From Bacteroidales bacterium (GTDB lineage: Bacteria > Bacteroidota > Bacteroidia > Bacteroidales > VadinHA17): a stretch of DNA of 36,704 bases. Below, piece after piece: positions 10,444 to 36,704 of this stretch; within the stretch, counting starts at the first letter, position 1, and each line of letters starts with the position of its first letter. The DNA lies in the NCBI GenBank assembly GCA_019429325.1, contig JAHYJA010000014.1:1-36704 (forward strand). The letters are read 5' to 3'. The notes under the pieces are model-generated. The model was not told the origin of the DNA. It made no database searches and saw only the letters and a list, made by a program, of their open reading frames with translations. The position numbers and the translations under genes were made by a program.

Positions 10444-11085
10444 TCACAGCCCGATGGTACGTCTCCATACCCTCAGCCCGATAAAGGACATTGCACAGTA
10501 TATTGCATACAGGGCGACCGTAGGATAGAGACCTCTCATAATAAAGAGCAGGGCCGAAACAATGTTGACGATGATCCACAGATACCAGTGTTCATAGATC
10601 TTCCGGGCCAGCATCCATGTTGCAATCACCGACAGGGAAGTGATAAACGAATCCCATAACGGCACCGGCGAATCGGTCCATTCCGAAAGAACAAACCAGA
10701 CCAGGGAGAAGAGTCCGGAAAAAACCATCGTCAGAACAATTCCGGTTCTCATCTTCAACCTGGTTACAGCCAGTTTTTCCTTCCCTGTGCTCTTCGCTCT
10801 AAGCTCTCCGCTCTCCGCCCCCTGCCCCCTGCCCTCCGCTCCCTGCTCCCTGCCCCTTGCCCACCAGTACCATCCCAGACAGCTGATGACAAGATAATAT
10901 CCCTGAAGGCTCATATCTGCATAGATCTTATGAGTAAAGAAAACCCAGATATAAACCGCTGAAGTCACTATACCGACCGGCCACAGCCAGAGATTCTGCC
11001 TGACCTCCAGGAAAACATAGATTATTCCGGTTACAGCTCCGAAGATCTCTATCCAGTTATCTGATATCCAGTATGATATTGTCAT
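10444..11085 (-). CDS. pnuT: PnuC-family inner-membrane vitamin transporter, probably thiamine (PnuT)
   Basis: This 213-residue protein has about seven membrane segments and PnuC-family motifs (ENWLWPVGIV-like NLWLWPVGIV, QGYYLVISCLGWYWW, and the C-terminal YEHWYLWIIVNIVSA). PnuC proteins carry nicotinamide riboside. The relatives named PnuT in Bacteroides carry thiamine and sit with an OMthi receptor under TPP-riboswitch control, which is exactly the context here. The gene follows the riboswitch-controlled receptor by 137 bp. It is odd in having a hydrophilic insert at residues 77-102 (REQGAEGRGQGAESGE...) encoded by an 11-unit 7-bp tandem repeat. The insert falls in a cytoplasmic or periplasmic loop after the third membrane segment. 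The usual third partner, a thiamine pyrophosphokinase gene (tnr3), is absent downstream. Confidence 0.88.
   Translation of the reverse strand: MTISYWISDNWIEIFGAVTGIIYVFLEVRQNLWLWPVGIVTSAVYIWVFFTHKIYADMSLQGYYLVISCLGWYWWARGREQGAEGRGQGAESGELRAKSTGKEKLAVTRLKMRTGIVLTMVFSGLFSLVWFVLSEWTDSPVPLWDSFITSLSVIATWMLARKIYEHWYLWIIVNIVSALLFIMRGLYPTVALYAIYCAMSFIGLRVWRRTIGL
10788..10864. repeat. 7-bp-period tandem repeat inside pnuT coding sequence
   Basis: Eleven consecutive heptamers of the form NGCYCYN read on the plus strand: TGCTCTT, CGCTCTA, AGCTCTC, CGCTCTC, CGCCCCC, TGCCCCC and so on, without a slip. On the coding strand they give GAG/GGG-rich units. The array encodes the hydrophilic insert of PnuT. It resembles the intergenic 7-bp arrays elsewhere in the window. 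Confidence 0.9.
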
Positions 11086-11106
11086 AGGACTGCTAAAAGG
11101 TTATAA

Positions 11107-11200
11107 GAAGACCGAAGACCGAAGGAATGAAAGGGAGAGGGGGAGAGGGAGCGAGGGAGCGATGGGGAGAGGGAGCGATGAGCGGTGAGCGGTGAGTAAC
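11107..11200. repeat. Degenerate 7-bp-period tandem repeat between the OMthi-like gene and pnuT
   Basis: The array begins with two GAAGACC units. Purine-rich heptamers follow (GGGAGAG/GGAGCGA types), then TGAGCGG twice and TGAGTAA. It fills most of the 137-bp gap between the receptor stop and the pnuT start. Bases 11107-11146 are an exact inverted copy of 19010-19049 at the end of dedA. Confidence 0.85.
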
Positions 11201-11222
11201 TGGACTGCATGACTGCACGACT

Positions 11223-13652
11223 TTAAAATTTGACGTTAAGTCTGATCATATAATTTATGCCAGCCTGCGGAAAATAATATGCCCAGGTCTTTTCAATGCC
11301 ATCCTCATACCAGTTACCCCCGTAGGCATTGCTTTCATACACGGCATTAAACAGGTTGTTGATCAGGAGCTGCATTGTTATGTCCCCGGGCTTACTGATT
11401 TGAGGCTCAAGATCAAACCTCAGGTTGTTGACAAGGTATGGTGAAAGCCTTCTTTCCCTGCTCATTGTATTGTCAAAGTACTGCATCCCCACATATTTGC
11501 TGATGAAATGGATTCTCAGCCACGATGCCGCTTTGAAAGCCAGGTTGCTGCTACCTGTCAGCCGGGGTGAATAAGCGATGTCGACATCCCGCGGCTCCCT
11601 GCTTCTGTATTCTGCCGACCAGTCGGATGTGTTATAATCGGTATAATACTCCACAAAATCCACGATCCTGTTCCTGCTGAGCGTTGAGTTAACACTCCAC
11701 TCAAGAAAGTCAACGGGTCTGAAGCCCGCATTTAATTCGACACCGATCCGGTAGCTGTTGCGGACGTTGGTCATGATGGGGTAGCCGACATCACTGAGTT
11801 CACCGGTAGGAACAAGCTGGTTCCTGTAAAGCATCGAATAAATATTAAGGCCGGTTGAAACCCTGTCTCTCCTGAACCTGTAGCCGAGTTCATGGTCGAA
11901 CAGTCTCTCAGGTAATGGAGTCGCATCATCATCACCCGCGGCCTCTTTGAAGTCGGTGCGTGTCGGCTCACGGTTTGCCAAGGAGAATGAGTAATAAAGA
12001 TCCTGGTTCTGGTCAATATTGAAAAAGATTCCCATCTTCGGATTGAAAAAGTTATATCTGTGCACCTGGCCGATCTCCTTCAGATCGTCATCCTCTCCGT
12101 CGAGCCTGTAACTAATATGCCTGTACTGCAAATCTCCGAACACGCTAATCCTGTCAGTCAGGGAGTAGGTGAGCTTCCCATAGATGCTTGCCTCGTCTTT
12201 TATTCCTGTATTCATATACCACTGGTAATCCTTCTTGTAATTGCCCGACCAGGCCATCCAGAGTATCCTTCCATAATGGTCGCCGGTATAGCTGTTGGCC
12301 CCGCCTCCGATAACAGCTTCGATACGGGGCTTGCGGTAATTAACAGACCAGACAATGCCATAAAAATCGTTCGCCATCCATTTTCTTCGTATCATATCTG
12401 TCTTATCGGTAATGGTGCCGTTAATATTCAGAGGCAGCAGTCCATAGTCCTCATAATATCTGTCTTCCCTGTATTCCTCATAATAGCCCTTACCTCGGGT
12501 ATAATGCAATGCAGTCTGTAACGAAACCGCATCGGTGGCTTTAAGATTGTAAATTAGCTGGTAATGGTTCTGGACATAATTGTCTGTTTCATTGTCATAA
12601 TACTGTGTGTTACCGTTCTGATCAGTATATTCTCCTGCAGGATTATACCGCCGGTTGATGGACATCATCTCCTGCGGAACGCCCCACCAGCCAATGCCGG
12701 TTTTCTCCTCGCCAAGGATAATATTTGCCTTCAGTCCTGATCTGTTGCCTTTGTAGATCCCGCTGATAAAAGCGGACCTGTGTTCAGAGCCTGTTCTTTC
12801 TATATACCCGTCGCTTTTTAGCGCAGAAAAGCGCATCTGCAGGGCGAATTTCTCAGCAAGGAGGCCTGTTCCGGCTGCAACCATACCTTTGAAGGTATTA
12901 AATGATCCTGCTGAGAAGTCTGCTTCCGCAAAAGGCTTATTATCAGGGTTTCTGGTCTGAATGTTAATTGAAGCGCCAAAGGCTCCCGCTCCGTTGGTTG
13001 AGGTGCCGGCGCCACGCTGAACCTGGATATTATCCACTGATGATGCCAGGTCAGGAAGATCAACCCAGAACACCTGCTGGGACTCAGGATCGTTAAGCGG
13101 GATCCCGTCGATAGTAACATTGATGCGGTTTCCTTCCGTGCCTCTGATCCGCAGTGCAGTATATCCGATGCCATTACCCGATTCGGAGGTCTCGACGAGC
13201 GATGGGGTCATACTGAGAAGGAACGGGAGGTCCCTTCCGCTGTTTTTCCTGCGCAGCTCTTCATCCGATATGTCAGAAAATGCCACCGGGGTCCGGTTAC
13301 CGGCCCGCAGGGCATTTATTATAACCTCCCCGGCAACCAGGATATCCGGTTCGAGCACTGCATCTGCAATAGCTTCGCCCGACAACGTAAGCTCCATTGT
13401 CAGGGTTTTGTAACCGACAAAAGAGAACCGCACACTGTATATGCCGTCCTTCAGCCCGGTGACCGTGTAGGTACCGTCGTTTCCCGCCACTGCACCCAGG
13501 TAAGTCCTTGTGATAGTAACTGATGTCCCGGGCAGGGGATTGCCCTCCCGGTCTGTTACTCTCCCCTTTATTACAGATCCGTCCTGAAACCCCGATGCAC
13601 GAAGCCCCAGCGTTAACCCGGTCAAAAGGACCAGAAATAATATCCTGCTCAT
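11223..13652 (-). CDS. TonB-dependent outer-membrane receptor for thiamine (OMthi-like)
   Basis: This 809-residue protein has a signal peptide (residues 1-~20, FLVLLTGLTLGLRASG). A carboxypeptidase-regulatory-like domain follows (about 27-110, with KGRVTDREGNPLPGTSVTI and VRFSFVGYKT). The plug includes LRIRGTEGNRINVTIDGIPL and VDNIQVQRGAGTSTNGAGAFG, and the barrel ends in the aromatic terminus MIRLNVKF. TonB receptors of this length take up siderophores, vitamins or metals. Thiamine is inferred because a TPP riboswitch lies in its 5' leader and a PnuC/PnuT permease follows, matching the OMthi-PnuT arrangement known from Bacteroides. The ATG at 13652 is the first after the riboswitch and gives a clean signal peptide. 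Confidence 0.9.
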   Translation of the reverse strand: MSRILFLVLLTGLTLGLRASGFQDGSVIKGRVTDREGNPLPGTSVTITRTYLGAVAGNDGTYTVTGLKDGIYSVRFSFVGYKTLTMELTLSGEAIADAVLEPDILVAGEVIINALRAGNRTPVAFSDISDEELRRKNSGRDLPFLLSMTPSLVETSESGNGIGYTALRIRGTEGNRINVTIDGIPLNDPESQQVFWVDLPDLASSVDNIQVQRGAGTSTNGAGAFGASINIQTRNPDNKPFAEADFSAGSFNTFKGMVAAGTGLLAEKFALQMRFSALKSDGYIERTGSEHRSAFISGIYKGNRSGLKANIILGEEKTGIGWWGVPQEMMSINRRYNPAGEYTDQNGNTQYYDNETDNYVQNHYQLIYNLKATDAVSLQTALHYTRGKGYYEEYREDRYYEDYGLLPLNINGTITDKTDMIRRKWMANDFYGIVWSVNYRKPRIEAVIGGGANSYTGDHYGRILWMAWSGNYKKDYQWYMNTGIKDEASIYGKLTYSLTDRISVFGDLQYRHISYRLDGEDDDLKEIGQVHRYNFFNPKMGIFFNIDQNQDLYYSFSLANREPTRTDFKEAAGDDDATPLPERLFDHELGYRFRRDRVSTGLNIYSMLYRNQLVPTGELSDVGYPIMTNVRNSYRIGVELNAGFRPVDFLEWSVNSTLSRNRIVDFVEYYTDYNTSDWSAEYRSREPRDVDIAYSPRLTGSSNLAFKAASWLRIHFISKYVGMQYFDNTMSRERRLSPYLVNNLRFDLEPQISKPGDITMQLLINNLFNAVYESNAYGGNWYEDGIEKTWAYYFPQAGINYMIRLNVKF

Positions 13653-13719
13653 CTCATAAAGAATTAATAAAACATTATAAATGAGGCACTCTGGATTTTA
13701 GCTGAATAAAGATTACTCT

Positions 13720-13795
13720 TTCTTCCCTCCGCCGGCATTACCCGGATCAGGTTCAAGGGTTTGATCTCAGCCCGTAGTATTAAGGCACCCCATTG
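13720..13795 (-). promoter_or_regulatory. TPP (thiamine pyrophosphate) riboswitch aptamer
   Basis: The minus strand carries the THI-element conserved blocks in order: GGGGTGCC (13784-13791), GGCTGAGATC (13763-13772 region), ACCCTTGAACCTGATC (13745-13760) and GGGTAATGCCGGCG (13730-13743), closing with GAGGGAA (13723-13729). The aptamer lies about 70 bp upstream of the OMthi-like start, so TPP binding should switch off thiamine uptake. I see no clear rho-independent terminator between aptamer and ATG. Control of translation initiation is therefore more likely than attenuation. Confidence 0.96.
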
Positions 13796-13805
13796 TTAGT
13801 TATTG

Positions 13806-13813
13806 CAAAGATA
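13806..13813 (-). promoter_or_regulatory. -7 promoter element of the riboswitch transcript
   Basis: Read on the minus strand, TATCTTTG matches the Bacteroidota -7 consensus TAnnTTTG perfectly. It ends about 10 bp before the riboswitch aptamer, so the transcript would start almost at the aptamer. A TTTG lies 23 bp further upstream, slightly beyond the usual -33 spacing. Confidence 0.7.
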
Positions 13814-13853
13814 TAAATTTTAATTAAATTAGCGATCAAATATCCTGACCTGT

Positions 13854-14276
13854 ATGAAAAGCCTTCCGGAGAAACTCAATTTCAAGGGGCAGAACAGAAT
13901 TGCGGTTATAAATGCAGCAGAGGACTTTATCCTCGCTCTATCCACGGAATTGAAAGATGTCCGCATTGATACTGAGATCGATCAGCGATACCCTTACACT
14001 TTCATGATAATTTTCGTGAGAAAAATAACTGAAGTCAGGCAGATTACGCCTGTGGTCCTTCATAACCTGGCCCTCGATGGCGTACTCTGGTTCTGTTACC
14101 CGAAAAAGAGCCCAAAAAAACTCTCTTCCGGCACTACCAGGGATAACGGCTGGAAAACGCTTAACGACAGCGGTTTTTTTGGTGTAAGAATGGTCTCCGT
14201 TGATGATAACTGGTCGGCGCTGAGGTTCAGGAACGTCAGGTTCATTAAATCGACCTCGGACAGATTCAAGGTCTGA
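13854..14276 (+). CDS. DUF3052-like small cytoplasmic protein
   Basis: This 140-residue protein has no signal peptide or membrane segment. The recognisable blocks are IAVINAAEDF near 16-25, DGVLWFCYPKKS at 75-86, TRDNGWKTL near 95-103, and VDDNWSALRFR at 116-126. This layout is the one I recall for DUF3052-like proteins: a Rossmann-like small domain in which a predicted strand ends in W-x-x-YPK, followed by a late DD-x-WSA-x-RFR motif. No catalytic role is established. The start is 41 bp from the divergent riboswitch promoter element. It is followed by a 375-bp repeat-rich gap, so it is probably monocistronic. Confidence 0.7.
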   Translation: MKSLPEKLNFKGQNRIAVINAAEDFILALSTELKDVRIDTEIDQRYPYTFMIIFVRKITEVRQITPVVLHNLALDGVLWFCYPKKSPKKLSSGTTRDNGWKTLNDSGFFGVRMVSVDDNWSALRFRNVRFIKSTSDRFKV

Positions 14277-14330
14277 TAGCGTAGAGTGTGCTTTGCCAGC
14301 CAAAGCTGGCCGGAGGACAGCGACGGCTGG

Positions 14331-14365
14331 GAGCGTAGAGCGTAGAGCGTAGAGCGTAGAGCAGA
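14331..14365. repeat. Tandem GAGCGTA 7-bp repeat
   Basis: Four perfect copies of GAGCGTA are followed by one GAGCAGA. A degenerate copy (TAGCGTAGAGTGTG) lies about 50 bp upstream, right after the stop of the DUF3052-like gene. The period matches the other heptamer arrays in the window. Confidence 0.92.
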
Positions 14366-14383
14366 GGCGACTGTAAAGGATAT

Positions 14384-14413
14384 GAGGATTGCTTCGCTTC
14401 GCTCGCAATGACG
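14384..14413. repeat. CGTCATTGCGA-type palindromic interspersed element
   Basis: On the minus strand it reads CGTCATTGCGAGCGAAGCG followed by AAGCAATCCTC. ATTGC and GCAAT can pair around a GCGAAGCGAA core. I recall closely similar short palindromes in intergenic regions of many unrelated bacterial genomes. Here it is a single copy. Confidence 0.65.
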
Positions 14414-14449
14414 GTAGAATTATTTATAATCAGTGTTATGCTCAGGAAT

Positions 14450-14561
14450 CCATCGTACCGTCGTACCGTCGTACCGTCGCACCATCGTACCGTCGTACCG
14501 TCGCACCATCGTACCGTCGTACCGTCGCACCATCGTACCGTCGTACCGTCGTACCGTCGTA
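14450..14561. repeat. 8-bp tandem repeat with 24-bp higher-order structure
   Basis: Fourteen consecutive octamers of the form CCRTCGYA occur without a slip. The variants CCATCGTA, CCGTCGTA and CCGTCGCA recur in the order A-B-C, giving a 24-bp higher-order unit repeated about three times. Only the first and last blocks contain extra B units. A degenerate tail (CCGTTACG, CCGC...) continues to about 14600. Confidence 0.93.
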
Positions 14562-14651
14562 CCGTTACGCCGCAAGGCCGCTATGCCGCTGCACCATCCT
14601 GAACAACCGGTATTCATAACAAAATCAATAATGTAATAAAACTAATTTCCA

Positions 14652-15008
14652 ATGAAATCTTTCCAGTCTTCTAAAAGTTATCTTCTTCTCCTGGCGCTTT
14701 TCGCCCTGTTATTCATAACAGGCTGTGCCCAGAGCGAACCGGTAAAGCATTGTCTTACAGGACATACCTATGGGTTCTTCGGTGGATTATGGCATGGATT
14801 CATCGCTCCTTTCGACTTTATTGCAATGCTTTTCAACGATAAAATTACAATGTATGCCCAGAATAATAACGGAGGACTATACGCACTCGGATTTCTGATT
14901 GGTGGGGGTGGCTGGGGATTTCTGGGAGGCAGGGGTGTAAAACAGGTGCGCCATACCCGGGTTAATATTCACAATGCCAGGTTTGATAAGGCGGAGATTG
15001 TTGAGTAG
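14652..15008 (+). CDS. Small glycine-rich lipoprotein of unknown function
   Basis: This 118-residue protein has a lipoprotein signal, with lipidated Cys25 (LLFITGCAQSE). The mature part carries HTYGFFGGLWHGFIAPFDFI at 38-57, then NNGGLYALGF and a glycine-rich hydrophobic stretch near 80-95 that could form a membrane hairpin. Small lipoproteins with the G-x-W-HG-x-IAPF-x-FI pattern occur widely, but I know of no assigned function. The stop at 15008 is followed within 7 bp by a heptamer repeat array. Confidence 0.75.
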   Translation: MKSFQSSKSYLLLLALFALLFITGCAQSEPVKHCLTGHTYGFFGGLWHGFIAPFDFIAMLFNDKITMYAQNNNGGLYALGFLIGGGGWGFLGGRGVKQVRHTRVNIHNARFDKAEIVE

Positions 15009-15014
15009 ATACCT

Positions 15015-15056
15015 GGTGACCGGAGACCGGTGATCGGTGATCGGTGGTCGGTAATT
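15015..15056. repeat. 7-bp tandem repeat (GGTGATC family)
   Basis: Six consecutive heptamers are present: GGTGACC, GGAGACC, GGTGATC, GGTGATC, GGTGGTC and GGTAATT. The array starts 6 bp after the lipoprotein stop codon. Its reverse complement resembles the array at 16958-16992 after the pirin gene. Confidence 0.9.
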
Positions 15057-15085
15057 CATTAATTAAGAAACTGTTACTGAAATGA

Positions 15086-16054
15086 ATGGATATGTTACGA
15101 CGATTATATAATCCGGGGATTTTCCAGGGAAAAATGACTTACCGGAACTATTTTGAAGGCTGGTATTTCAAACATGTTTCGGCGGACCTGAAGCATGTCT
15201 GGTCATTTATTCCGGGTATCTCTCTGGCCGACAACGATTCACATTCATTTATACAAATAATAAACGGGATCACGGGTGAAACGGATTATGTGGAATATCC
15301 TACAGATGAATTTGCCTGGGACAGAATAAGACTTTATGTGAAAGTGGGCCGTTCAGTATTTACCGATAGTTATATAGATCTGAATATAAGAAGTGAAAAA
15401 CACACTGTTTCAGGAAAAATAAAGTTTAAGAACCTGATCAGATATCCGAAAACCCTTCTTGCCCCGGGTATCATGGGATGGTATTCATTCGTCCCCTTTA
15501 TGGAGTGTAAACACGGTGTCGTCTCTGTCGGTCATGACCTTTCCGGCGGGATTTCCGTAAACGGGGTTATGACAGATTTCACCAGAGGAAAGGGCTATAT
15601 TGAAAAGGACTGGGGAACCTCTTTCCCGGAAGCATGGATCTGGATACAGAGTAATAATTTCAGCATTCCTCATACTTCCTTTATGCTTTCCGTGGCCAAG
15701 ATACCATGGCTGGGCAAATTCTTCACAGGATTGATCTCCTTTCTTTGCCTTAAGGGAGAGTTTTATCTTTTTAGCACTTACAACAATTCTTCCCTTTCGG
15801 ATGTTAAGTACGAGGACGGCAGACTTGAAATGACACTCCGAAATAAAGATTATTCCCTCAGGCTGACAGCAGTGAAGAACCTCTCCGGAGAACTCCGTGC
15901 GCCCCAAACAGGCAAAATGTCGAGGCATATAAAGGAGAGTATCGATTCGGAAATCAGCGTAAGTCTGTTTGATAATAAGAACCGCCTTATATGGGAGGAT
16001 ACAGGTAAGCGGGCGGGTCTTGAGATAATTGATAAAATATTTGAGTATATATAA
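15086..16054 (+). CDS. Tocopherol-cyclase-like protein
   Basis: This is a 322-residue protein without a signal peptide. Family-diagnostic blocks are NYFEGWYFKHV near 21-31, HSFIQIINGITG near 53-64, GWYSFVPFMECKHGVVS at 131-147, and the signature GKGYIEKDWGTSFPEAWIW at 168-186 followed by QSN. Plant homologues cyclise prenylated quinols to tocopherols. Bacterial relatives in non-photosynthetic species have no known substrate and share a lipocalin-like double-barrel fold. A pirin gene begins 14 bp downstream, so the two are almost certainly co-transcribed. A role in modifying a quinone or other hydrophobic ring compound is only inference. Confidence 0.85.
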   Translation: MDMLRRLYNPGIFQGKMTYRNYFEGWYFKHVSADLKHVWSFIPGISLADNDSHSFIQIINGITGETDYVEYPTDEFAWDRIRLYVKVGRSVFTDSYIDLNIRSEKHTVSGKIKFKNLIRYPKTLLAPGIMGWYSFVPFMECKHGVVSVGHDLSGGISVNGVMTDFTRGKGYIEKDWGTSFPEAWIWIQSNNFSIPHTSFMLSVAKIPWLGKFFTGLISFLCLKGEFYLFSTYNNSSLSDVKYEDGRLEMTLRNKDYSLRLTAVKNLSGELRAPQTGKMSRHIKESIDSEISVSLFDNKNRLIWEDTGKRAGLEIIDKIFEYI

Positions 16055-16068
16055 ATGACCGGCAGATT

Positions 16069-16953
16069 ATGGAAACAAGAATAAAAGGAGTGGAGGCAGT
16101 TCTTCCTCCACCCCCGACACACATGGTTGGCGATGGTTTCAAAGTCCACAATTTCTTCCCTTCGCTGAGTATAATAGGTGATTATGGCATGAGCCCGTTC
16201 TTTCTCCTTGATTATAACTCAAAATGGATACTGCCTCCATCTGAGAGGCCCCGGGGTGTGGGTGTGCATCCTCACAGGGGAATAGAGACTGTTACTCTTG
16301 CCTATCACGGCAGGATTGCTCATCATGACAGCGCAGGTAACAGCGGAGTTATTGGAGAGGGAGATGTACAATGGATGACAGCCGGAGGAGCAGTTCTTCA
16401 TAAAGAGTATCACGAAAAGGAGTTCAGCAAGACCGGAGGATTGTTCCAGATGGTACAGCTGTGGATAAACCTTCCCGGGAAATTTAAAATGACCCCGGCA
16501 AAATATCAGGCTATTGAAAACGCACAAATGGCTAAATATATTTCCGAAGACGGAAAAAGCCACATAGACCTGATTGCAGGAGAGTACAAGGGACTTAAGG
16601 GCCCGGCTTTCTCGTTTTCACCTGTAAACCTGTTCAACGCCAGGTTAAAAAGCGGAGCAGTTGCTGACTTCAGTTTCAGCAGGGATTTTAACACAGCCAT
16701 TCTCATTATTGAGGGTGAAATCAAAGTCAATGGATCGCAGGTCGTCCCGGCCGACCATCTGGCTTATTTCAATCATGAGGGGGAAGAATTCCTGGTTGAA
16801 GCGCTGAATGATTCCATAGTTCTCATTATGAGCGGGGAACCCCTGAACGAACCGGTTGCAGCCTACGGGCCGTTCGTAATGAATACCGATGAAGAGATCC
16901 GGCAGACTTACAATGATTATTACAGCGGGAAGTTCGGCTACCTGGAGGATTGA
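16069..16953 (+). CDS. Pirin-family cupin protein
   Basis: This 294-residue bicupin has the N-terminal metal site intact: His67 and His69 in GVHPHRGIETV, and His111 and Glu113 in QWMTAGGAVLHKEYHEK. The C-terminal pirin domain contains GPFVMNTDEEIRQTYNDY. Pirins bind Fe or Ni/Cu. Some bacterial members oxidise quercetin, others act as redox regulators or partners of metabolic enzymes. The gene starts 14 bp after the tocopherol-cyclase-like gene, suggesting that both act on related aromatic or quinone compounds. A heptamer repeat begins 4 bp after its stop. Confidence 0.93.
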   Translation: METRIKGVEAVLPPPPTHMVGDGFKVHNFFPSLSIIGDYGMSPFFLLDYNSKWILPPSERPRGVGVHPHRGIETVTLAYHGRIAHHDSAGNSGVIGEGDVQWMTAGGAVLHKEYHEKEFSKTGGLFQMVQLWINLPGKFKMTPAKYQAIENAQMAKYISEDGKSHIDLIAGEYKGLKGPAFSFSPVNLFNARLKSGAVADFSFSRDFNTAILIIEGEIKVNGSQVVPADHLAYFNHEGEEFLVEALNDSIVLIMSGEPLNEPVAAYGPFVMNTDEEIRQTYNDYYSGKFGYLED

Positions 16954-16957
16954 ACCA

Positions 16958-16992
16958 CTGATTACTGATTACCGTTCACCGATTACTTATTA
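16958..16992. repeat. 7-bp tandem repeat (CTGATTA family)
   Basis: Five heptamers, CTGATTA, CTGATTA, CCGTTCA, CCGATTA and CTTATTA, start 4 bp after the pirin stop and end 19 bp before the M61 start. They look like the reverse complement of the array at 15015. Confidence 0.85.
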
Positions 16993-17011
16993 ACGGAAAA
17001 CCATTATCTTC

Positions 17012-18868: not shown

Positions 18869-18923
18869 TATCGCCGGCTCGCTCCTTGTCTTATCTCATC
18901 AATGGCTCAGAGCAAGACTGTCT

Positions 18924-18959
18924 TGCAGGTCATGCAAGTCGTGCAAGTCGTGCAAGTCT
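18924..18959. repeat. 9-bp tandem repeat
   Basis: Four nonamers, TGCAGGTCA, TGCAAGTCG, TGCAAGTCG and TGCAAGTCT, lie between the convergent M61 and dedA genes. They are preceded by a partly palindromic CTTGCAGGTCATGCAAG and followed by pyrimidine-rich heptamers. Confidence 0.88.
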
Positions 18960-18993
18960 GAAGAAACTTCTTAATTATGCCCTTGGTATTCGA

Positions 18994-19053
18994 TCTCCCC
19001 CTCTCCCCATCTCCCCCTCTCCCTTTCATTCCTTCGGTCTTCGGTCTTCGGTC
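18994..19053. repeat. 7-bp repeat array overlapping the 3' end of dedA
   Basis: Pyrimidine-rich units (TCTCCCC types) run into three perfect TTCGGTC heptamers at 19033-19053. Bases 19010-19049 are an exact inverted copy of 11107-11146. The dedA stop codon and its last ten codons lie inside this array. Confidence 0.92.
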
Positions 19054-19652
19054 TTCTTCAGTATTCCCTTTACTATCAGATAGATCACAAAACCTGTACC
19101 CAGAGCTATAAGCCCAGGAACCAAGTAGGGGAATATCTGTTCCCTGACTTCATAAAGGAAATATCCGATAACGGCAAGTATCAGATTCCAGATGCCTGCT
19201 CCGGCTGCAGTATAGATGACAAAATCCCGCAGTTTCATCTCAGCCAGGCCGGCGGGTATTGATATTAACTGGCGGACAGCCGGGACCAGACGGCCAATGA
19301 AGGTTGATGATCTGCCGTTCCTGTTAAAATAATCCTCGGCATGCTCTACCTTCTTCTCAGAAAGGAGCAGCAGCCTGCCAAGCTTCGAGCCGGCAAATTT
19401 ATAGACTATCGGACGTCCGAGGTATTTCGCAAGATAATAGTTTATAAGCGCACCCATAAGTGCACCTAAGGTTCCTGCCAGGAAAACGCCGAAAATATTA
19501 AGGTTACCCTGGGCAGCCTTGTAGGCTGCAAACGGGATCACAGCTTCCGACGGAAAGGGCATGAACGAACTCTCAATGGTCATAAGAAGAGCCACCGTGA
19601 AATAATTCAGATTGGCCATGTACCAATCGAGCAGGGAATGAAAAAACTCCAT
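19026..19652 (-). CDS. DedA-family (SNARE-associated/VTT) inner-membrane protein
   Basis: This 208-residue polytopic protein has DedA signatures: acidic Glu27 in TIESSFMPFPSEAVIPF, a glycine-rich segment at 58-70, and the motif FIGRLVPAVRQLISIPAG at 118-135 with its conserved arginines. DedA proteins are linked to flipping or recycling of undecaprenyl phosphate or phospholipids and to membrane-potential-dependent transport. It is the last gene of a run KUP - GH51 - GH51 - DedA, only 6 bp after the GH51 stop. Its last ten residues (KKTEDRRPKE) and stop codon are encoded by a heptamer repeat. The natural C-terminus has probably been replaced or extended by that repeat. Confidence 0.93.
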   Translation of the reverse strand: MEFFHSLLDWYMANLNYFTVALLMTIESSFMPFPSEAVIPFAAYKAAQGNLNIFGVFLAGTLGALMGALINYYLAKYLGRPIVYKFAGSKLGRLLLLSEKKVEHAEDYFNRNGRSSTFIGRLVPAVRQLISIPAGLAEMKLRDFVIYTAAGAGIWNLILAVIGYFLYEVREQIFPYLVPGLIALGTGFVIYLIVKGILKKTEDRRPKE

Positions 19653-19658
19653 ATCAGA

Positions 19659-21638: not shown

Positions 21639-21645
21639 TATTAAC

Positions 21646-23253: not shown

Positions 23254-23278
23254 AATACCTGGTTTTATTTATGAATAA

Positions 23279-25234: not shown

Positions 25235-25350
25235 TTTTACAATAACCTGCCGGAAACATCAGAAAACGATCAAATTTAATAATTTATAAAATGCAGGTCC
25301 TTCTATTAAGGATTAATTTAATTATATTTCCGGAAGTTGAAAAAACTGCC

Positions 25351-27684: not shown

Positions 27685-27703
27685 TACCCGTCTGACGTAT
27701 CAG
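27681..27703. terminator. Hairpin over convergent stop codons
   Basis: CTGATAC (27681-27687) pairs with GTATCAG (27697-27703) around a 9-base loop. The stem includes the stop codons of both the metal transporter and the M1 peptidase, which converge with a 15-bp gap. There is no T-tract, so it is a weak candidate bidirectional terminator. Confidence 0.4.
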
Positions 27704-29292: not shown

Positions 29293-29344
29293 ATAAGGAT
29301 ATTTATCTGATTAATTTTTTAACCTGCTTAACCTGAGTTGCTGG

Positions 29345-30322: not shown

Positions 30323-30376
30323 AATACTTAAGTTTAACAAATAATATCCTGGGCAAGAATTAACAAAATAAGTAAT

Positions 30377-30384
30377 TAACTTTG
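30377..30384 (+). promoter_or_regulatory. -7 promoter element for DUF4290-murA
   Basis: TAACTTTG matches TAnnTTTG exactly and ends 19 bp before the DUF4290 ATG. No TTTG occurs at the expected -33 distance, so this is a partial match. Confidence 0.5.
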
Positions 30385-30403
30385 CATAAAACAATTCAAT
30401 CCT

Positions 30404-31051
30404 ATGAATTACGATTACAACACCCAGAGGAAGAAGATGACCCTGCCCGAATATGGCAGGAACGTGCAGAAGATGATTGATCATATCAAGACGATAGAGG
30501 ACAGGGATGAAAGGAACCGTGCGGCGAAAACCATTATCCAGATAATGGGCAATCTGAATCCTCATCTCCGTGATGTTGGTGATTATAAGCATAAGCTATG
30601 GGATCACCTTGCGCTTATCGCCGATTTCGGTCTGGATATTGATTCACCGTATCCTGCACCCGAGATTGAAAAGCTCACCGAAAAACCTAACCAGATCCCA
30701 TATCAGCAGGGCGGAATACGATACCTTCACTATGGCCGTATAATAGAGCTGATGATAGAGACTGCGTCCGAAATGGAGGACGGTGATGAGAAGGAGTATC
30801 TTACCACTCTCATTGTTAACCAGATGAAGAAATCATATATAACCTGGAACAGAAGCCAGGTAAGCGATGAAGTGATAATCGGAGATATGAAACTGCTCTC
30901 CCGCGGCCGCCTTAAAATGACTGACGGCGTTAAAATACTGGAAGTCAAGGATCTGATCCCGCCGGTAAAAAAGAAACCTGTACAGGTCAGGCAGCACGGG
31001 AAGCAGCAGAACAAGCAATTCGCCAGGAAGAAAGGATATAACCGTCATTGA
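30404..31051 (+). CDS. DUF4290 protein
   Basis: This 215-residue cytoplasmic protein starts YDYNTQRKKMTLPEYGRNVQ, typical of DUF4290, a family I know only from Bacteroidota. It is mainly alpha-helical (RAAKTIIQIMGNLNP, YGRIIELMIETASEME) and ends in a Lys/Arg/Gln-rich tail (KKKPVQVRQHGKQQNK...) that could bind nucleic acid or membrane. Its stop codon overlaps the murA start (TGATG), so translation of the two is likely coupled. This gene order ties DUF4290 to peptidoglycan precursor synthesis, but no function has been demonstrated to my knowledge. Confidence 0.9.
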   Translation: MNYDYNTQRKKMTLPEYGRNVQKMIDHIKTIEDRDERNRAAKTIIQIMGNLNPHLRDVGDYKHKLWDHLALIADFGLDIDSPYPAPEIEKLTEKPNQIPYQQGGIRYLHYGRIIELMIETASEMEDGDEKEYLTTLIVNQMKKSYITWNRSQVSDEVIIGDMKLLSRGRLKMTDGVKILEVKDLIPPVKKKPVQVRQHGKQQNKQFARKKGYNRH

Positions 31052-32358
31052 TGGGGACATTCATCGTTCAGGGAGGAAGGAGACTAAAGGGAGAAATAAC
31101 CCCTCAGGGAGCGAAGAATGAAGCCCTGCAGGTAATCTGCGCCACTCTTCTTACTTCTGAAAAAGTCACTATCAGAAACATCCCCGCCATCAGCGATGTT
31201 GACAGGCTTATTGAACTGCTTGGTTCTCTGGGTGTGAAGATTATCCGGGAGTCTCCCGGGGAAATAAGCTTCAGGGCTGCCACCATCGATCCGGATTATA
31301 TGCAGACCTCCGGTTTCCGCAACAAGAGCATAACCATCAGGGGATCGATCATGATGGTCGGCCCGCTCCTTGCCAGGTTTGGAAAAGCATATATTCCGAG
31401 GCCCGGAGGCGACAAGATCGGGCGGAGAAGAGTTGATACCCATTTTACAGGATTTCAGAAACTTGGCGCTTCCGTTGAGTTCGATACAGCTGATCCCTTC
31501 TTTAAAGCAGAGGCCTCTTCATTAACCGGAACCTATATCCATCTCGATGAGGCATCAGTAACCGGTACCGCAAATATTATAATGGCTGCGGTGCTTGCCC
31601 GCGGACGGACTACAATATACAACGCGGCCTGCGAGCCTTACGTTCAGCAGCTCTGCAAAATGCTGGTATCCATGGGAGCAAACATCAGTGGCATAGGCTC
31701 AAACCTTCTTTATATAGACGGGGTTGAAAGCCTTGGCGGCTGCACCCACACCATACTGCCCGATATGATAGAAATCGGGTCATTCATCGGGCTTGCTGCC
31801 ATGACCGGATCAGAGATAACCATCAGGGACGTGGCGTACGAAAACCTTGGCATTATTCCTGATTCATTCCGCAGACTCGGTATCAGGCTGGAGAGGAGAG
31901 GTGACGACATTTACATCCCCTGTCAGGACCATTATGAGATCGAAACTTTTATCGAAGGATCAATAATGACGATCGCGGATGCAATATGGCCGGGACTGAC
32001 CCCTGACCTGATAAGTGTCCTGCTCGTTACCGCCACGCAGGCAAAAGGAGCCGTACTGATACATCAGAAAATGTTCGAAAGCAGGCTGTTCTTCGTTGAC
32101 AAGCTTATTGACATGGGAGCCCGGATCATTCTCTGCGACCCCCACAGAGCAACTGTGATAGGTCTCGACAAGAACATAAGGCTCAGGGGAACCACTATGT
32201 CATCTCCCGACATAAGGGCCGGAGTGGCCCTTCTTATCGCCGCCTTGTCGGCCGAAGGAAAAAGCGTGATAAACAATATCGAACAGATCGACCGTGGATA
32301 CCAGAATATCGACCAGCGGCTCAACTCTCTCGGCGCCAGCATCGAAAGAACGGAATGA
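31051..32358 (+). CDS. murA: UDP-N-acetylglucosamine 1-carboxyvinyltransferase, Asp-type
   Basis: This 435-residue enzyme transfers enolpyruvate from PEP to UDP-GlcNAc, the first committed step of peptidoglycan synthesis. I use ATG 31051 (MGTFIVQGGRRLKG); the frame also opens at TTG 31048. The family landmarks KNEAL at 22-26 and the active-site loop PRPGGDKIGRRRVDTHF are clear. In the loop, Asp121 (codon 31411-31413) stands where E. coli has Cys115. Enzymes with Asp here stay active but are not alkylated by fosfomycin, so intrinsic resistance of this target is expected. The start overlaps the DUF4290 stop by one base. A short ATCTGC/GCAGAT hairpin (32373-32388) followed by TTTTG lies after the stop. 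Confidence 0.97.
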   Translation: MGTFIVQGGRRLKGEITPQGAKNEALQVICATLLTSEKVTIRNIPAISDVDRLIELLGSLGVKIIRESPGEISFRAATIDPDYMQTSGFRNKSITIRGSIMMVGPLLARFGKAYIPRPGGDKIGRRRVDTHFTGFQKLGASVEFDTADPFFKAEASSLTGTYIHLDEASVTGTANIIMAAVLARGRTTIYNAACEPYVQQLCKMLVSMGANISGIGSNLLYIDGVESLGGCTHTILPDMIEIGSFIGLAAMTGSEITIRDVAYENLGIIPDSFRRLGIRLERRGDDIYIPCQDHYEIETFIEGSIMTIADAIWPGLTPDLISVLLVTATQAKGAVLIHQKMFESRLFFVDKLIDMGARIILCDPHRATVIGLDKNIRLRGTTMSSPDIRAGVALLIAALSAEGKSVINNIEQIDRGYQNIDQRLNSLGASIERTE

Positions 32359-32421
32359 CAATTTGTCAATACATCTGCATTGGCAGATATTTTGTTAAAT
32401 TAAGTAAAACCAAACTGTAAT

Positions 32422-32429
32422 TACTTTTG
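32422..32429 (+). promoter_or_regulatory. -7-like element immediately upstream of grpE
   Basis: TACTTTTG fits TAnnTTTG and ends only 2-5 bp before the in-frame ATGs at 32432 and 32435. If used, the transcript would be essentially leaderless. No TTTG sits at the right -33 distance; the nearest is at 32391-32394. Confidence 0.4.
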
Positions 32430-32431
32430 TG

Positions 32432-33049
32432 ATGATGCCAAAGAAGAAACAGCATAATCAGGCAACCGATAGTAAAGAGTCTAAAAATAAACATGTTACG
32501 GATACTGCAGAGTTGAAGGAGGAGAGTGCGACGGATTCTTCACCGGGAAACGGTACCGGTAACAAGGCAGATGATAGTGTTGCCACTGACAAATCCGGTA
32601 GAGAAATAAAGGAACTTACGGAAAAACTGGCAGAGATGCAGGACAAATATCTGCGACTTTCAGCTGAGTTTGATAACTACAGGAAACGTACACTGCGCGA
32701 AAAAATAGAACTATCCAAATATGCAGGGGAGAATATTTTAACAGGAATATTGCCCTTCATGGACGATTTTGAAAGAGCTCTGAAACATATGGATACCTGC
32801 GAAGAGGGTGCTCCCGTAAAGGAGGGAATAATTCTTATCTATCAGAAGCTCATGGAATTCCTTAAACAGAACGGCGTCAAGGAGATCGAATCACAGGATG
32901 CCCTTTTTAATGTTGACCTTCACGAAGCTGTCGGAACGGTGCAGGCACCGGAAACCGATAAGAAAGGGAAGATCATCGAGGTGGTTTTAAAGGGCTATTA
33001 CCTTCAGGACAAGGTAATAAGGCATTCAAAAGTATTGGTCGGGGAGTAA
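32432..33049 (+). CDS. grpE: GrpE nucleotide-exchange factor
   Basis: This protein of about 205 residues exchanges ADP for ATP on DnaK. A low-complexity acidic/Ser/Thr-rich N-terminus (about 55 residues) precedes the long dimerising coiled coil (EIKELTEKLAEMQDKYLRLSAE, FDNYRKRT). The C-terminal beta domain follows, with the hallmarks LPFMDDFERAL, HEAVGTV and GYYLQDKVIRHSKVLV. Three possible starts lie together (GTG 32429, ATG 32432, ATG 32435); I chose the first ATG. dnaJ follows after 46 bp in the classical grpE-dnaJ order; dnaK is elsewhere. Confidence 0.97.
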   Translation: MMPKKKQHNQATDSKESKNKHVTDTAELKEESATDSSPGNGTGNKADDSVATDKSGREIKELTEKLAEMQDKYLRLSAEFDNYRKRTLREKIELSKYAGENILTGILPFMDDFERALKHMDTCEEGAPVKEGIILIYQKLMEFLKQNGVKEIESQDALFNVDLHEAVGTVQAPETDKKGKIIEVVLKGYYLQDKVIRHSKVLVGE

Positions 33050-33095
33050 TCTGCGGCAAAGCGCCCGGGAGCAACAGCAGAAATAAATAACAGGG

Positions 33096-34250
33096 ATGGA
33101 AAAGAGAGATTTTTACGAGGTGCTTGGTGTTTCTAAAGGAGCCACAAAGGAGGAGATAAAAAAGGCTTACAGGAAGCAGGCATTGAAATATCATCCCGAT
33201 AAGAACCCCGGCGACAGGAAAGCTGAAGAGAATTTCAAAGAGGCTGCTGCCGCTTATGAAGTGCTGAGCAACGATGAGAAGAGAGCCCGGTACAACCGGT
33301 ACGGACATGAGGGACTGGGAGGAATGGGCAACGGATTCGGTGGTGCCGGAATGACCATGGAAGATATCTTCTCATCCTTCGGGGATATTTTTGGTGATGC
33401 TTTCGGCGGTTTTGCCGGATTCGGTGGTTCGCGCCGCAGCAGCCGGAGAGTCAACAAGGGAAGTAACCTCAGGGTGAAAGTTAAACTCACACTGAAGGAG
33501 GTTGCTGCAGGTACCGAAAAGAAGATCAGGGTTAACAAATACCATTCATGCGATTCATGCGGCGGCTCAGGGGCTGCCGATGCCAACAGTATGACAAACT
33601 GTTCTACCTGCAACGGATCTGGACACGTTACGAGACTTACCAATACCATGCTCGGGCAGATGCAGACAACATCGGTATGCCCCACCTGCGGCGGCGAAGG
33701 GAAAACGATCACCCGGAAATGCCCTGCCTGCTACGGTGAAGGAATCGTCCAGAAAGAGGAGGTAATCAAAATTAATATTCCCGCAGGGGTCGGGAAAGGT
33801 ATGCAGATGACCCTTTCGGGCAAAGGGAACGCCCCACGTCGCGGAGGGGTTAACGGAGATCTTCTTGTAGTTATCGACGAAGAATCGCACCCGGATCTGA
33901 TCAGGGAAGGCAATGACTTGATCTATAACTTGTTTATTAGTATCCCCGATGCCGTCCTTGGCAGTCATGTAGAAGTCCCCACTGTTGAAAACAACGTGAA
34001 AATCAAGATCGAACCTGGCACCCAGCCGGGAAAAATACTGCGCCTCAGGGGCAAGGGCCTGCCCGAAGTGAACGGATACGGAAGAGGAGACCTCCTTGTA
34101 AATGTGAACGTCTGGATACCCAAAAACATATCCAGGGAGGAGATGAAACTTATTGAAAAGTTCAAAGACTCCGAATCATTCAGGCCCAGACCTGATAAAA
34201 GCGATAAAGGCTTCTTTGAACGCATGAGAGGCTACTTCGAACAGACATGA
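33096..34250 (+). CDS. dnaJ: DnaJ (Hsp40) co-chaperone
   Basis: This is a complete 384-residue class A J-protein. The J domain carries His33-Pro34-Asp35 (YHPDKNPGD). A Gly/Phe-rich linker runs through about 72-112 ([21 protein letters not shown]). The four zinc-binding repeats begin with CDSCGGSG (152), CSTCNGSG (169), CPTCGGEG (195) and CPACYGEG (209). The C-terminal substrate-binding domain contains [11 protein letters not shown]. It delivers unfolded proteins to DnaK and stimulates its ATPase. It is 46 bp downstream of grpE and is likely co-transcribed with it. No CIRCE or other heat-shock operator is visible upstream. Confidence 0.98.
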
Positions 34251-34369
34251 TCCTGCCTCATCCCCTCAGGGTAACAATGTGTATTATGCATTTAAACATC
34301 ATCCGTTAGACTGATATTTTAACGGAGTTTTTTATATTTACACTTCTTTTCACAATACATCTATCTCCT

Positions 34370-35278
34370 ATGGCACTATTTGAAGCAAAGAATGTATCAA
34401 AACAGTACGGGACGCAACTGGCTCTTGACAACGTCAGCGTATCAGTCCCCGAACAATCCATTTACGGTCTCCTGGGCCCCAACGGCGCCGGGAAAACCAC
34501 CCTCATCAGGATCATCAACCAGATAACAGGCCCCGATTCCGGTGAGCTCTTTATCGGGGGAAAGAAACTATTGCCTGAAGATGTGATGGTTATCGGATAT
34601 CTCCCCGAAGAAAGAGGTCTGTATAAAAAGATGAAGGTCGGTGAACAGGCTCTCTATTTCGCACAACTAAAGGGACTCTCAAAGGCGGAAGCAATGAGAA
34701 GACTGAAATACTGGTTCAGAAAGCTTGAGATTGTCGACTGGTGGGGCAAGAAAGTTGAGGAACTCTCCAAGGGGATGCAGCAGAAGGTCCAGTTTATCAT
34801 TACCGTGCTCCACGAGCCAAAACTTCTGATATTCGATGAGCCCTTTACCGGATTCGATCCTGTTAATATGAATATTATTAAAAATGAGATCCTTTTCCTC
34901 AGGGAAAAGGGCGCTACAGTAATATTCTCAACCCATAACATGGGTTCCGTGGAAGAGTTGTGCGACAATATCACCCTTATCAACAAGGCAAAAACAATTC
35001 TTGAGGGAAGCGTTAGTGAGATCCGGAAGCAGTGGGCTGCCAATGAATACGACCTTGTTTTTGAAGGAGAAGCGGATATCGAGGGAAACAACCACTATAA
35101 GATCATTTCCCGCCAGAGCGAAAACGGTAAGAGCAGTGTCAGGCTGAAAACCACAAGCGATATCAGGACAAATGATATTATCAGTACCGCAACAAAGTCA
35201 GGAAATCTGCTCTCATTTAATCCGGCACTGCCCTCCATGACCGAGATATTCATCAGGGTGGTTGAGACCCGTAATTAA
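34370..35278 (+). CDS. ABC transporter ATP-binding protein (NatA-like)
   Basis: This 302-residue ATPase has Walker A GPNGAGKT at 36-43, the signature LSKGMQQ at 132-138, Walker B LLIFDEP at 152-158 and the switch His189 in FSTHN. A C-terminal extension of about 80 residues resembles DUF4162, found on drug or sodium exporter ATPases. It energises the permease encoded 31 bp downstream. The length and context fit the NatA/CcmA group of ABC-2 exporters. The substrate (Na+, drug or lipid-linked compound) is not evident. The 119-bp gap after dnaJ suggests its own promoter. Confidence 0.95.
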   Translation: MALFEAKNVSKQYGTQLALDNVSVSVPEQSIYGLLGPNGAGKTTLIRIINQITGPDSGELFIGGKKLLPEDVMVIGYLPEERGLYKKMKVGEQALYFAQLKGLSKAEAMRRLKYWFRKLEIVDWWGKKVEELSKGMQQKVQFIITVLHEPKLLIFDEPFTGFDPVNMNIIKNEILFLREKGATVIFSTHNMGSVEELCDNITLINKAKTILEGSVSEIRKQWAANEYDLVFEGEADIEGNNHYKIISRQSENGKSSVRLKTTSDIRTNDIISTATKSGNLLSFNPALPSMTEIFIRVVETRN

Positions 35279-35309
35279 CCCGAATCGAAACAACTGTAAC
35301 CAACAAGTC

Positions 35310-36671
35310 ATGAATAAAATACCTGTAATAATAAAAAGGGAATACCTGACCAGGGTCAGGAAAAAATCATTCATCATAATGACCATCCTCGCGCCGGTTC
35401 TGATGGCTGCGCTGATAATCGTACCGACCGTCGTCATGCTTAATCAGGGACAGGATTTTAAAAAAATTGCTGTAATCGAAGAGCGTTCCGATCTTTTCAG
35501 AGGGGTAATTCCCAATACCAAGGAGGTCGAGTTTGACTATCTCGATAACGTCAGCGTCGAGGACATGAAAACAACATTTACCCAGGCCGGATACTATGGC
35601 ATACTATACATCTCACCTGAGATCATCAATATCCCGAACGCCATACAGCTCATTTCAAAAAGCCAGCCCCCTATCGGACTGCTGGATCATATCGAGAACT
35701 CTCTCGAGAAAGAGATCGAGAAGCAGAAGCTTCTGGCTTACAACATCGAGGACCTTGATAAGATAATGAAAAGCGTCAAGACAAATATCTCGATACAGAC
35801 AGTAAAGATCGATGCCTCCGGCGTTATAAAGGAGACCAGCACGGGCATTGCAATGGTTCTGGCCTATATCAGCGGCTTCCTTATGTATATGCTTGTTTTC
35901 ATCTTTGGCACCCAGGTTATGAGAGGTGTGATTGAAGAGAAAACCAACAGGGTGGTAGAGGTAATAATCTCTTCGGTGAAGCCGGTTCAGCTTATGATGG
36001 GGAAAATAATCGGAATTGCCCTCGTGGGTCTCACCCAATTCCTGATATGGGTGATACTTACAATAGGGATCGTTTCGGTAGTAAAAAGTACAGTCATGCA
36101 GAAAAGCAGCATTGCTGAGGTAACCCAGACGGCAACTCAAAGCCTGATGAACGCTGATCAGCTCCCTGATGATATTGCTGCGAAAACAGGGGAGATCTCC
36201 CCCGAGCTGGCTGAATTCACGAAATTGTTCAACAGCGCCATGAACCAGCGGTGGGGATTGATCATCTTTTCATTTATTTTCTATTTCATCACCGGCTACC
36301 TTCTCTATGCCTCAATCTTTGCAGCTATCGGCTCCGCAGTCGACAACGAGACGGAGACGCAGCAGTTCATGCTGCCTGTCACAATACCGATCATACTTGC
36401 TCTCATGGTCGCTATTGGCACAATGCAGAACCCCGAGAGCTCACTTTCTTTCTGGTTCTCCATCATACCTCTGACTTCACCTATTGTCATGGTAGCAAGG
36501 CTCCCCTTCGATGTACCATACTGGCAGCTGGCCCTCTCAATGTCGCTTATGCTTGTTACCTTTATGGCTTTTGTCTGGATGGCCGCCAAGATTTACCGGG
36601 TCGGGATACTTATGTACGGAAAGAAGACATCATGGAAAGAGATGTGGAAATGGCTGAGGTTTAGTGGCTGA
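35310..36671 (+). CDS. ABC-2 type permease (NatB-like)
   Basis: I start at ATG 35310 (MNKIPVIIKREYLTRVRKKS), which is the normal N-terminus of NatB-type permeases. The frame reaches back to 35262 but then overlaps the ATPase gene. The 453-residue protein has one N-terminal membrane segment (about 20-45), a large extracytoplasmic domain up to about 175, and five or six further segments. The conserved VMRGVIEEKTNRVVEVIISSVKP loop lies between the second and third. It forms the channel of the NatAB-like exporter with the upstream ATPase. Its last codons and stop run into a GGCTGAG heptamer repeat that continues to the window edge. Confidence 0.93.
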   Translation: MNKIPVIIKREYLTRVRKKSFIIMTILAPVLMAALIIVPTVVMLNQGQDFKKIAVIEERSDLFRGVIPNTKEVEFDYLDNVSVEDMKTTFTQAGYYGILYISPEIINIPNAIQLISKSQPPIGLLDHIENSLEKEIEKQKLLAYNIEDLDKIMKSVKTNISIQTVKIDASGVIKETSTGIAMVLAYISGFLMYMLVFIFGTQVMRGVIEEKTNRVVEVIISSVKPVQLMMGKIIGIALVGLTQFLIWVILTIGIVSVVKSTVMQKSSIAEVTQTATQSLMNADQLPDDIAAKTGEISPELAEFTKLFNSAMNQRWGLIIFSFIFYFITGYLLYASIFAAIGSAVDNETETQQFMLPVTIPIILALMVAIGTMQNPESSLSFWFSIIPLTSPIVMVARLPFDVPYWQLALSMSLMLVTFMAFVWMAAKIYRVGILMYGKKTSWKEMWKWLRFSG

Positions 36672-36704
36672 GGGTTGAGGGCTGAGGGCTGGGGGCTGAG
36701 GGCT
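36666..36704. repeat. 7-bp tandem repeat overlapping the permease stop codon
   Basis: Units GGCTGAG, GGTTGAG, GGCTGAG, GGCTGGG, GGCTGAG and GGCT run to the window edge and are cut there. The first unit supplies the final Gly codon and the TGA stop of the permease. Confidence 0.9.

Follow-up and report, generated by a model that had tools for sequence, protein, structure and literature searches.

Short-period tandem arrays are scattered over the 36,704-nt stretch analyzed here (the window), which is an entire contig (JAHYJA010000014.1) of a Bacteroidales genome of 3.39 Mb in 263 contigs (G000). Our preferred explanation, with a probability of about 0.7, is that these arrays represent arms, mostly solitary or degenerate, that derive from small mobile elements with a single gene, which encodes the 23S rRNA intervening-sequence protein (IVP; Pfam PF05635, "four helix bundle"). 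In many phyla, IVP genes lie between two mutually inverted arrays. Some sites are filled in one replicon and empty in another, and arms and IVP are inherited jointly at unrelated loci. In one orthologous spacer, between tdh and kbl, the element decays to partial and solitary derivatives, and one unit, GAGCGTA, both occurs in dispersed arrays and builds the arms of an intact element. The IVP elements are best read as kin of 23S rRNA intervening sequences (IVSs).

IVP genes between mutually inverted arrays

PF05635, a family present in Bacteroidota genomes, was tested as the partner gene of the arrays. G000 contains seven PF05635 genes, each above the Pfam cut-off, and the family was found in 53 of the 58 genomes of the genus at E ≤ 0.001 (52 above the cut-off). 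All 30 aligned IVPs match PF05635, and 23 of them also match Pfam bAvd (best match, 8e-10); IVP forms a four-helix bundle and is a relative of Avd, a protein of retroelements; solved structures are available for relatives of IVP (2gsc and 2rld). IVP is reportedly a pentamer, as the paper on the XCC0516 structure states in its title.

At the seven G000 loci, all situated between protein reading frames, the IVP gene is enclosed by two mutually inverted arrays, with a different unit at each locus. The score for inverted similarity of the flanks was at least 30 within 300 bp at six of these loci, the seventh (L037) having degenerate 8-mers. A genus set of 36 loci was compiled from these seven and one locus from each of 29 relatives, among the matches listed; 27 of the 36 reached this score, compared with 1 of 111 control open reading frames (ORFs; 300–1200 bp, own sample), and arrays of the same period were present on both sides at 18 of the 36 loci and at none of the 111 controls. 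One G000 locus (L039, 1311–1476; G000:C206) has a left arm of 11-bp period with ~14 copies, so that the period of the family is not strictly 7–9 bp. Elsewhere, an IVP gene cluster (L247; G001:C71:8000–27999) contains 23 arrays in 20 kb at an 80% threshold, including gene-less arrays that are inverted back to back.

Beyond the genus, a tblastn search of plasmids with one IVP returned 20 records, 15 of them cyanobacterial, of which 16 were analyzed and a seventeenth was added later. The contexts of these plasmid IVPs include cas6/cas4, cas10/cmr3, and nrdB/nrdA and a position beside a traM-like gene; at three cyanobacterial plasmid loci, IVP lies between cas genes with adjoining heptamer arrays. 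Inverted repeat arms were recognized by eye at 13 of the 16 loci (not at L080, L081, and L082, the last with direct repeats; weak at L078), and 10 of the 16 had an inverted score of at least 30. An Azospirillum IVP (L086) is located inside 23S rRNA (large-subunit match, 792–3990), is accompanied by inverted 7-bp repeats, and is a classical IVS. A scan of genome contigs yielded at least 593 IVP relatives, of which the best 80 were kept. By record title, these 80 belong to Cyanobacteria, Acidobacteria, Pseudomonadota, Planctomycetes, Clostridia, Chloroflexi, Patescibacteria, Kiritimatiellae, Bacteroidota, Omnitrophica, and Nitrospinota, and one (L152) lies on a contig binned as a Methanophagales archaeon. 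Among these best 80 of at least 593, the inverted score was at least 30 at 55 loci, a clear array was present on the left at 39, on the right at 40, and on both sides at 27, and none of the 80 loci matched the Azospirillum 23S rRNA flanks.

Pooling gave 132 IVP loci, of which 126 were usable (six with short or N-rich flanks were dropped). When the best lag among 4–13 was determined in the adjoining 200 bp, it was 7 at 86 of the 126 loci on the left and at 91 on the right, compared with 10/118 and 11/118 in distal control sequence 700–900 bp out. Clear arrays adjoin IVP on the left in 72 cases, on the right in 69, and on both sides in 50 (distal control: 7, 3, and 1, respectively). The inverted left-right score within a locus averaged 38.3, compared with 22.4 for direct similarity and 17.5 for permuted partners (maximum of 19.1 in 2,000 permutations). 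The arms are polar, being G-rich upstream in 85 of 102 cases and C-rich downstream in 88 of 97.

Movement, decay, and position

The site occupied by the element in the Nostoc plasmid pNsp_a is uninterrupted in pNsp_c and in plasmids of strains C052 and C057, and the insertion is consistent with TTCTA, ~5 bp located at the upstream stop codon, on each side. A spacer at the traM-like gene holds a full element in C052, none in C057, and a gene-less stretch with inverted heptamers in ATCC 53789. The nrdA-nrdB spacer is filled in N. edaphicum, ~1 base past the nrdA stop codon, and empty in a Calothrix. Taken alone, a 418-bp element that ends at its arms has matches (78–81% identity) in plasmids of Aulosira, Scytonema, and two Trichormus. 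Two further candidates were set aside: near-identical Calothrix copies are uninformative, being part of a segmental duplication that spans at least 3.5 kb, and the Anabaena/Dolichospermum cas6-cas4 spacer is not a clean empty site because the other strain carries a different insert. In this spacer, Dolichospermum (L251) has another insert with inverted ends where Anabaena sp. 90 holds the IVP element.

Arms and IVP were compared across 128 loci with an open frame, for which 8,091 of the 8,128 pairs were kept after removal of those with orthologous flanks; arms with a score of at least 40 were considered shared. At these non-orthologous loci, arms were shared in all 6 pairs with an IVP identity of at least 80%, in 30 of 84 pairs at 60–80%, and in 16 of 4,082 pairs below 40%. 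Such tracking of the IVP lineage by the arms speaks against some other mobile system with heptamer-array ends that carries IVP genes as passengers, as does the little space for a second gene in the elements that were read. To our knowledge, IVP has no transposase or catalytic domain, and gene-less inverted arrays exist (Nostoc L256 and the L247 cluster), both of which would suit a passenger; we nevertheless regard this possibility as very remote.

For the tdh-kbl spacer, 30 loci of the genus were fetched and 27 were parsed. A full element is present at three of the 27 (one with 264 N in the stretch), both arms surround an internally deleted IVP at one (L203), a solitary arm is left at one (L225), and the spacer is nearly empty, with 2–28 bp, at six; three loci differ otherwise. 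At the remaining 13 loci (L199–L224), the spacer contains a different gene-less palindrome, of the CTTTGTG/CACAAAG type, which may represent a separate family or a reduced relative of the IVP elements. The filled and empty sites, the arms that track the IVP lineage, and the decaying element in one spacer together support a mobile unit.

GAGCGTA is dispersed in G000 and in the nearest relative found, the sister species G067 (85–93% DNA identity over aligned blocks). The pattern has 44 matches in G000 and 230 in G067, counting overlapping positions, and none for the reversed control, and it makes up both inverted arms of one G067 IVP element (L371). In addition, each of two compound junctions matches G000 at seven places when up to two mismatches are allowed. 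The first-pass annotation, made from the letters of the window, had taken the variety of units to indicate a shared generating mechanism rather than copies of one element; on these counts, many arrays are dispersed copies. As a separate observation, the dispersed GAGCGTA unit of G067 (L287–L294 and L344–L380) forms some arrays of well above ten copies.

The positions of elements and arrays were counted using mechanical ORFs as gene calls. Among the 132 loci, IVP is parallel to both neighbors at 81 and antiparallel to both at 7; at the others, there is no neighbor in the stretch (22), the neighbor is far (5), or IVP lies between divergent or convergent genes (17). At loci with a same-strand upstream gene and a left arm that could be detected, this arm starts at a median of 0 bp from the stop codon (within 30 bp in 47 of 64 cases), and the right arm ends at a median of 7 bp before the next start (within 30 bp in 45 of 73). 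For GAGCGTA, 58 arrays in 57 stretches were collected, two of them being the arms of the G067 IVP element, and 45 were usable. The upstream gene is on the G-rich strand in 37 of the 45 and on the other strand in 8; a same-strand stop codon lies no more than 30 bp from the start of 31 arrays, and no array begins that close to a start codon of the opposite strand. Between tandem genes, the orientation follows the G-rich strand in 24 cases versus 5. One strand rule for all arrays was rejected, as it holds in the GAGCGTA family but not in the mixed G000 sample, where no bias was found (17 usable arrays of 25; 1 versus 4 between tandem genes).

Stop-codon position and strand polarity would also be expected of functional regulatory sequences at gene ends, such as signals for termination or translation or G-quadruplexes, and the IVP genes would then take part in the regulation. 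A similar rule has been described for Xanthomonas and Nostoc heptamers, which, according to PMC4692102, lie on the sense strand within 50 bp of stop codons and on the antisense strand within 50 bp before ORFs and are mostly transcribed. Yet, close relatives differ in the presence, length, and unit of the array at the same place, one array is located within pnuC, and the mixed arrays of G000 follow no strand rule, so that we consider a regulatory origin highly improbable.

Arrays of the window and their link to IVP arms

The arrays reported in the first-pass annotation are real: Tandem Repeats Finder recovered those listed, with corrections (Table 1). The program itself delimited several of them slightly differently, at 10789–10862, 15015–15052, 18920–18958, 18994–19056, and 36666–36704.

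Table 1. Short-period tandem arrays in the window, with strand and context.
Array	Coordinates	Strand	Remarks
Period 7, GGGAGCG/GGGGGCA-like on minus strand	10789..10863	-	Inside pnuC, in frame; Tandem Repeats Finder
Composite, periods 7/8/7	11107..11196	+	Spacer of TonB-dependent receptor gene and pnuC; Tandem Repeats Finder
GAGCGTA, perfect, period 7	14331..14362	+	54 bp past stop; Tandem Repeats Finder
Period 8, TCGTACCG on plus strand	14453..14565	-	Tandem Repeats Finder
GGTGATC, period 7	15013..15056	+	Stop codon 4 bp before; Tandem Repeats Finder
ACTGATT, period 7, weak (75% matches)	16957..16992	no strand	3 bp past stop of pirin-like gene
Period 9, in compound repeat dispersed in genome	18919..18962	+	50 bp past stop
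Period 8 (18994–19023), then 7 (19032–19056)	18991..19060	-	Tandem Repeats Finder
GGCTGAG, period 7	36664..36704	+	Includes stop codon of ABC-2 transporter; reaches contig end

A strict period of 7 bp, as initially described, applies to most of the arrays so listed but not to the composite array at 11107 or to 18994–19056. A start near a stop codon likewise holds for the arrays at 15013, 16957, and 36666, the last with the stop codon within it, and fails for 10789, which is in a gene, and for 14331 and 18919. The view of a single array family with the period as its constant was borne out, and the earlier interpretation as a whole is partly supported.

Chance was assessed in 20 pieces of G000 comprising 264,971 bases, 262,002 of them readable (one piece, L020, is all N), with one dinucleotide shuffle of each piece. 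The real sequence contained 17 arrays at lag 7, six at lag 8, and two at lag 9, with further arrays at lags 14, 16, 18, 21, and 24 and none at lags 2–6 and 10–13; the shuffled pieces contained none at any lag from 2 to 24. Periods in the readable sequence are confined to 7, 8, and 9 bp and their multiples, and the shuffles rule out chance or base composition as the source. The case for an assembly artefact at contig ends was not made, with arrays at 2 of 28 ends (4 of 30 before the two ends of the all-N piece were removed) compared with 56 of 3,000 random windows, N included, although the contig of the window itself ends in an array. A CRISPR array was rejected given that the units run head to tail without unique spacers between repeats.

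None of the seven IVP genes of G000 is located within the window, and the link to the window accordingly rests on kinship between arrays. Compared with IVP arms of the genus, the G000 arrays had a mean score of 38.4, versus 27.4 for column-permuted copies and 29.6 for arms of other loci. The array at 14453 scored 54 against the genus arms, and that at 18919 scored 51 against the arms of one genus IVP locus; neither value was reached by any of 20 permuted copies. The junction sequence of the array at 18991 is shared with the array at 11107, in the opposite orientation, and with five more places in the genome. The sole clear inverted partner of any window array is the 11146–11196 part of the array at 11107, which pairs with 10789–10863 at a score of 37, a value equalled in none of 17 other contexts.

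Comparison of array lengths with a relative, another proposal of the first-pass annotation, revealed differences in length, unit, and presence between G000 and G067. In G067, the pnuC array is longer by 42 bp (six heptamers), other heptamers occupy the position of the array at 11107, the array at 14453 is far shorter with a different unit, and the 18919–19060 compound is absent. The pnuC reading frame (10444–11085, minus strand) contains the array at 10789, and, in most of 30 aligned genus loci examined by eye (L087–L116), the PnuC loop has heptamer-like in-frame inserts with unit and length varying by species; at this place (10789–10863), a coding sequence is built from array-type repeats. 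At the tocopherol-cyclase loci of 12 relatives, no arrays were detected at the strict threshold, and the flanks are apparently not syntenic with the window, so that these loci do not serve as clean empty sites.

Several observations weigh against the derivation of the arrays from mobile IVP elements. No insertion was observed. Direct similarity of the flanks equals or exceeds inverted similarity at 9 of the 36 genus loci, and, among the 80 loci from other phyla, 25 stay below an inverted score of 30. The window lacks an IVP gene, no inverted partner lies within 600 bp of most G000 arrays, and none of the seven G000 IVP loci is a GAGCGTA-armed element. Taken individually, only 14 of 28 G000 arrays had at most 1 of 20 permuted copies as good. 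Furthermore, array density was not found to depend on the number of IVP genes: 23 arrays occur in 265 kb of G000, which has seven IVP genes; 4 occur in 186 kb of five relatives that have 10–18 IVP genes, 3 of these in G023; and 2 occur in 151 kb of five relatives that have no IVP genes, one of which we read as a collagen-like coding repeat.

That array density does not track IVP number would fit arrays that arise independently by replication slippage, along the lines of the short tandemly repeated repetitive (STRR) or long simple-sequence-repeat view, in which polymerase slippage favors ~7 nt, IVP genes settle in arrays, and hairpin-templated repair equalizes the two sides. The whole-unit differences point the same way, both those between G000 and G067 and the one-unit difference within a duplicated array pair (L009), and slippage is a proposal cited in the introduction of PMC4679880. 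However, insertion into an existing array would give direct flanks, and inverted ones are seen; units are common to dozens of loci and travel with IVP; and clean empty sites exist. We therefore judge slippage unlikely as the origin of the arrays and favor their derivation from IVP elements.

Apart from the arrays, the only Rfam match in the window at the gathering threshold is a thiamine pyrophosphate (TPP) riboswitch at 13705–13801 on the minus strand.

Possible mechanism and relation to known systems

A full IVP element spans about 0.4–0.6 kb, with the IVP gene enclosed by a G-rich array, mostly of 7-mers and less commonly of 8- or 9-mers, and by an inverted copy of this array. It is placed just past a stop codon between genes, usually co-directionally, or in 23S rRNA as a classical IVS. 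In RNA form, the element would make a single long stem whose loop contains the gene, and folding of two elements (z of −8.8 and −5.6) suggests that the transcript likely forms such a long hairpin. IVP would recognize its own repeat unit, the two arms would stay alike via hairpin-templated repair, and arm length would change via slippage while units drift between loci. The arrays of the window would have arisen as arms of such elements.

More speculatively, and with the odds in our estimate clearly against it, IVP elements could be RNA-targeting: they would insert into transcripts, either at helices of rRNA or where a ribosome terminates at the stop codon of an mRNA, and would get back into DNA through borrowed reverse transcription, in which IVP would play an Avd-like role. 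Heptamer repeats of bacteria would then generally be footprints of such elements. Such targeting would explain the insertion in 23S rRNA, the arms that start at stop codons, the co-direction of IVP with its neighbors, and the orientation of GAGCGTA arrays between tandem genes. The lack of an orientation bias in the mixed G000 arrays counts against it, as does the possibility that the orientation of IVP comes from selection for expression and against gene disruption.

Three puzzles become one question here, namely, the origin of STRR-like heptamers, the role of the "four helix bundle/S23" proteins, and the spread of 23S rRNA IVSs. If the proposed derivation is true, repeats of a class common in bacteria are what is left of a tiny mobile element that has no recognized transposase and is present in many phyla. 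In outline, IVP elements resemble the repetitive extragenic palindromic (REP) sequences and their associated tyrosine transposases (RAYTs), where a gene is likewise accompanied by inverted repeats and gene-less copies are dispersed; REPs, however, are short palindromes rather than tandem arrays, and RAYT is a Y1 transposase. Diversity-generating retroelements share with IVP elements a protein of the Avd kind, a likeness noted in PMC10053308 and consistent with the bAvd matches. Unlike these retroelements, no cognate reverse transcriptase was seen in G000, where the single RVT_1 match is nearest, over the piece compared, to the group II intron reverse transcriptases in NCBIfam.

The 23S rRNA IVSs share with the present elements the IVP/S23p gene family, terminal inverted repeats, and stem-loop RNA. 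Heptamers are also common to both: variable GACAGAT heptamers precede the S23p gene in the Coxiella IVS, as described in PMC4990558, and the Azospirillum IVS has inverted 7-bp repeats. In contrast to classical IVSs, nearly all of the present loci lie between protein genes, as do all those of G000, and the arms are long tandem arrays, with solitary arms dispersed in the genome. In the open-access literature, surveyed by titles and the beginnings of abstracts, we found no earlier paper linking heptamer arrays to IVP genes, except for the heptamers of the one Coxiella IVS. Published records of such genes include 18 IVP genes counted in cas loci (PMC3936711) and, in Flavobacterium columnare, a four-helix gene with guanylate kinase on one side and a nicotinate adenylyltransferase on the other (PMC5524665). 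The IVP elements may also account for the presence of IVP genes in cas operons.

The arrays resemble the STRR or heptamer repeats of Nostoc, Beggiatoaceae (TAACTGA), and Xanthomonas (GGGAATC), which, according to PMC4679880 and PMC4692102, are degenerate 7-bp intergenic arrays with many units near stops and starts; dispersed degenerate heptamer arrays in spacers are what G000 contains as well. The initial comparison with cyanobacterial STRRs was apt because arrays of a like kind flank cyanobacterial IVP genes, but the accompanying remark that no equivalent was known in Bacteroidota has to be corrected: MacGregor 2015 (PMC4679880) reported TAACTGA heptamers in Beggiatoaceae, Cyanobacteria, and five Bacteroidetes, with no transfer mechanism evident. 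The terms "four helix" and "S23" do not occur in PMC4692102, nor is an IVP or four-helix gene mentioned in the passages of either paper that were examined. In contrast to the STRRs as described, the present arrays are tied to a gene and to inverted arms, and IVP elements may explain heptamer repeats that have been puzzling in many bacteria for decades.

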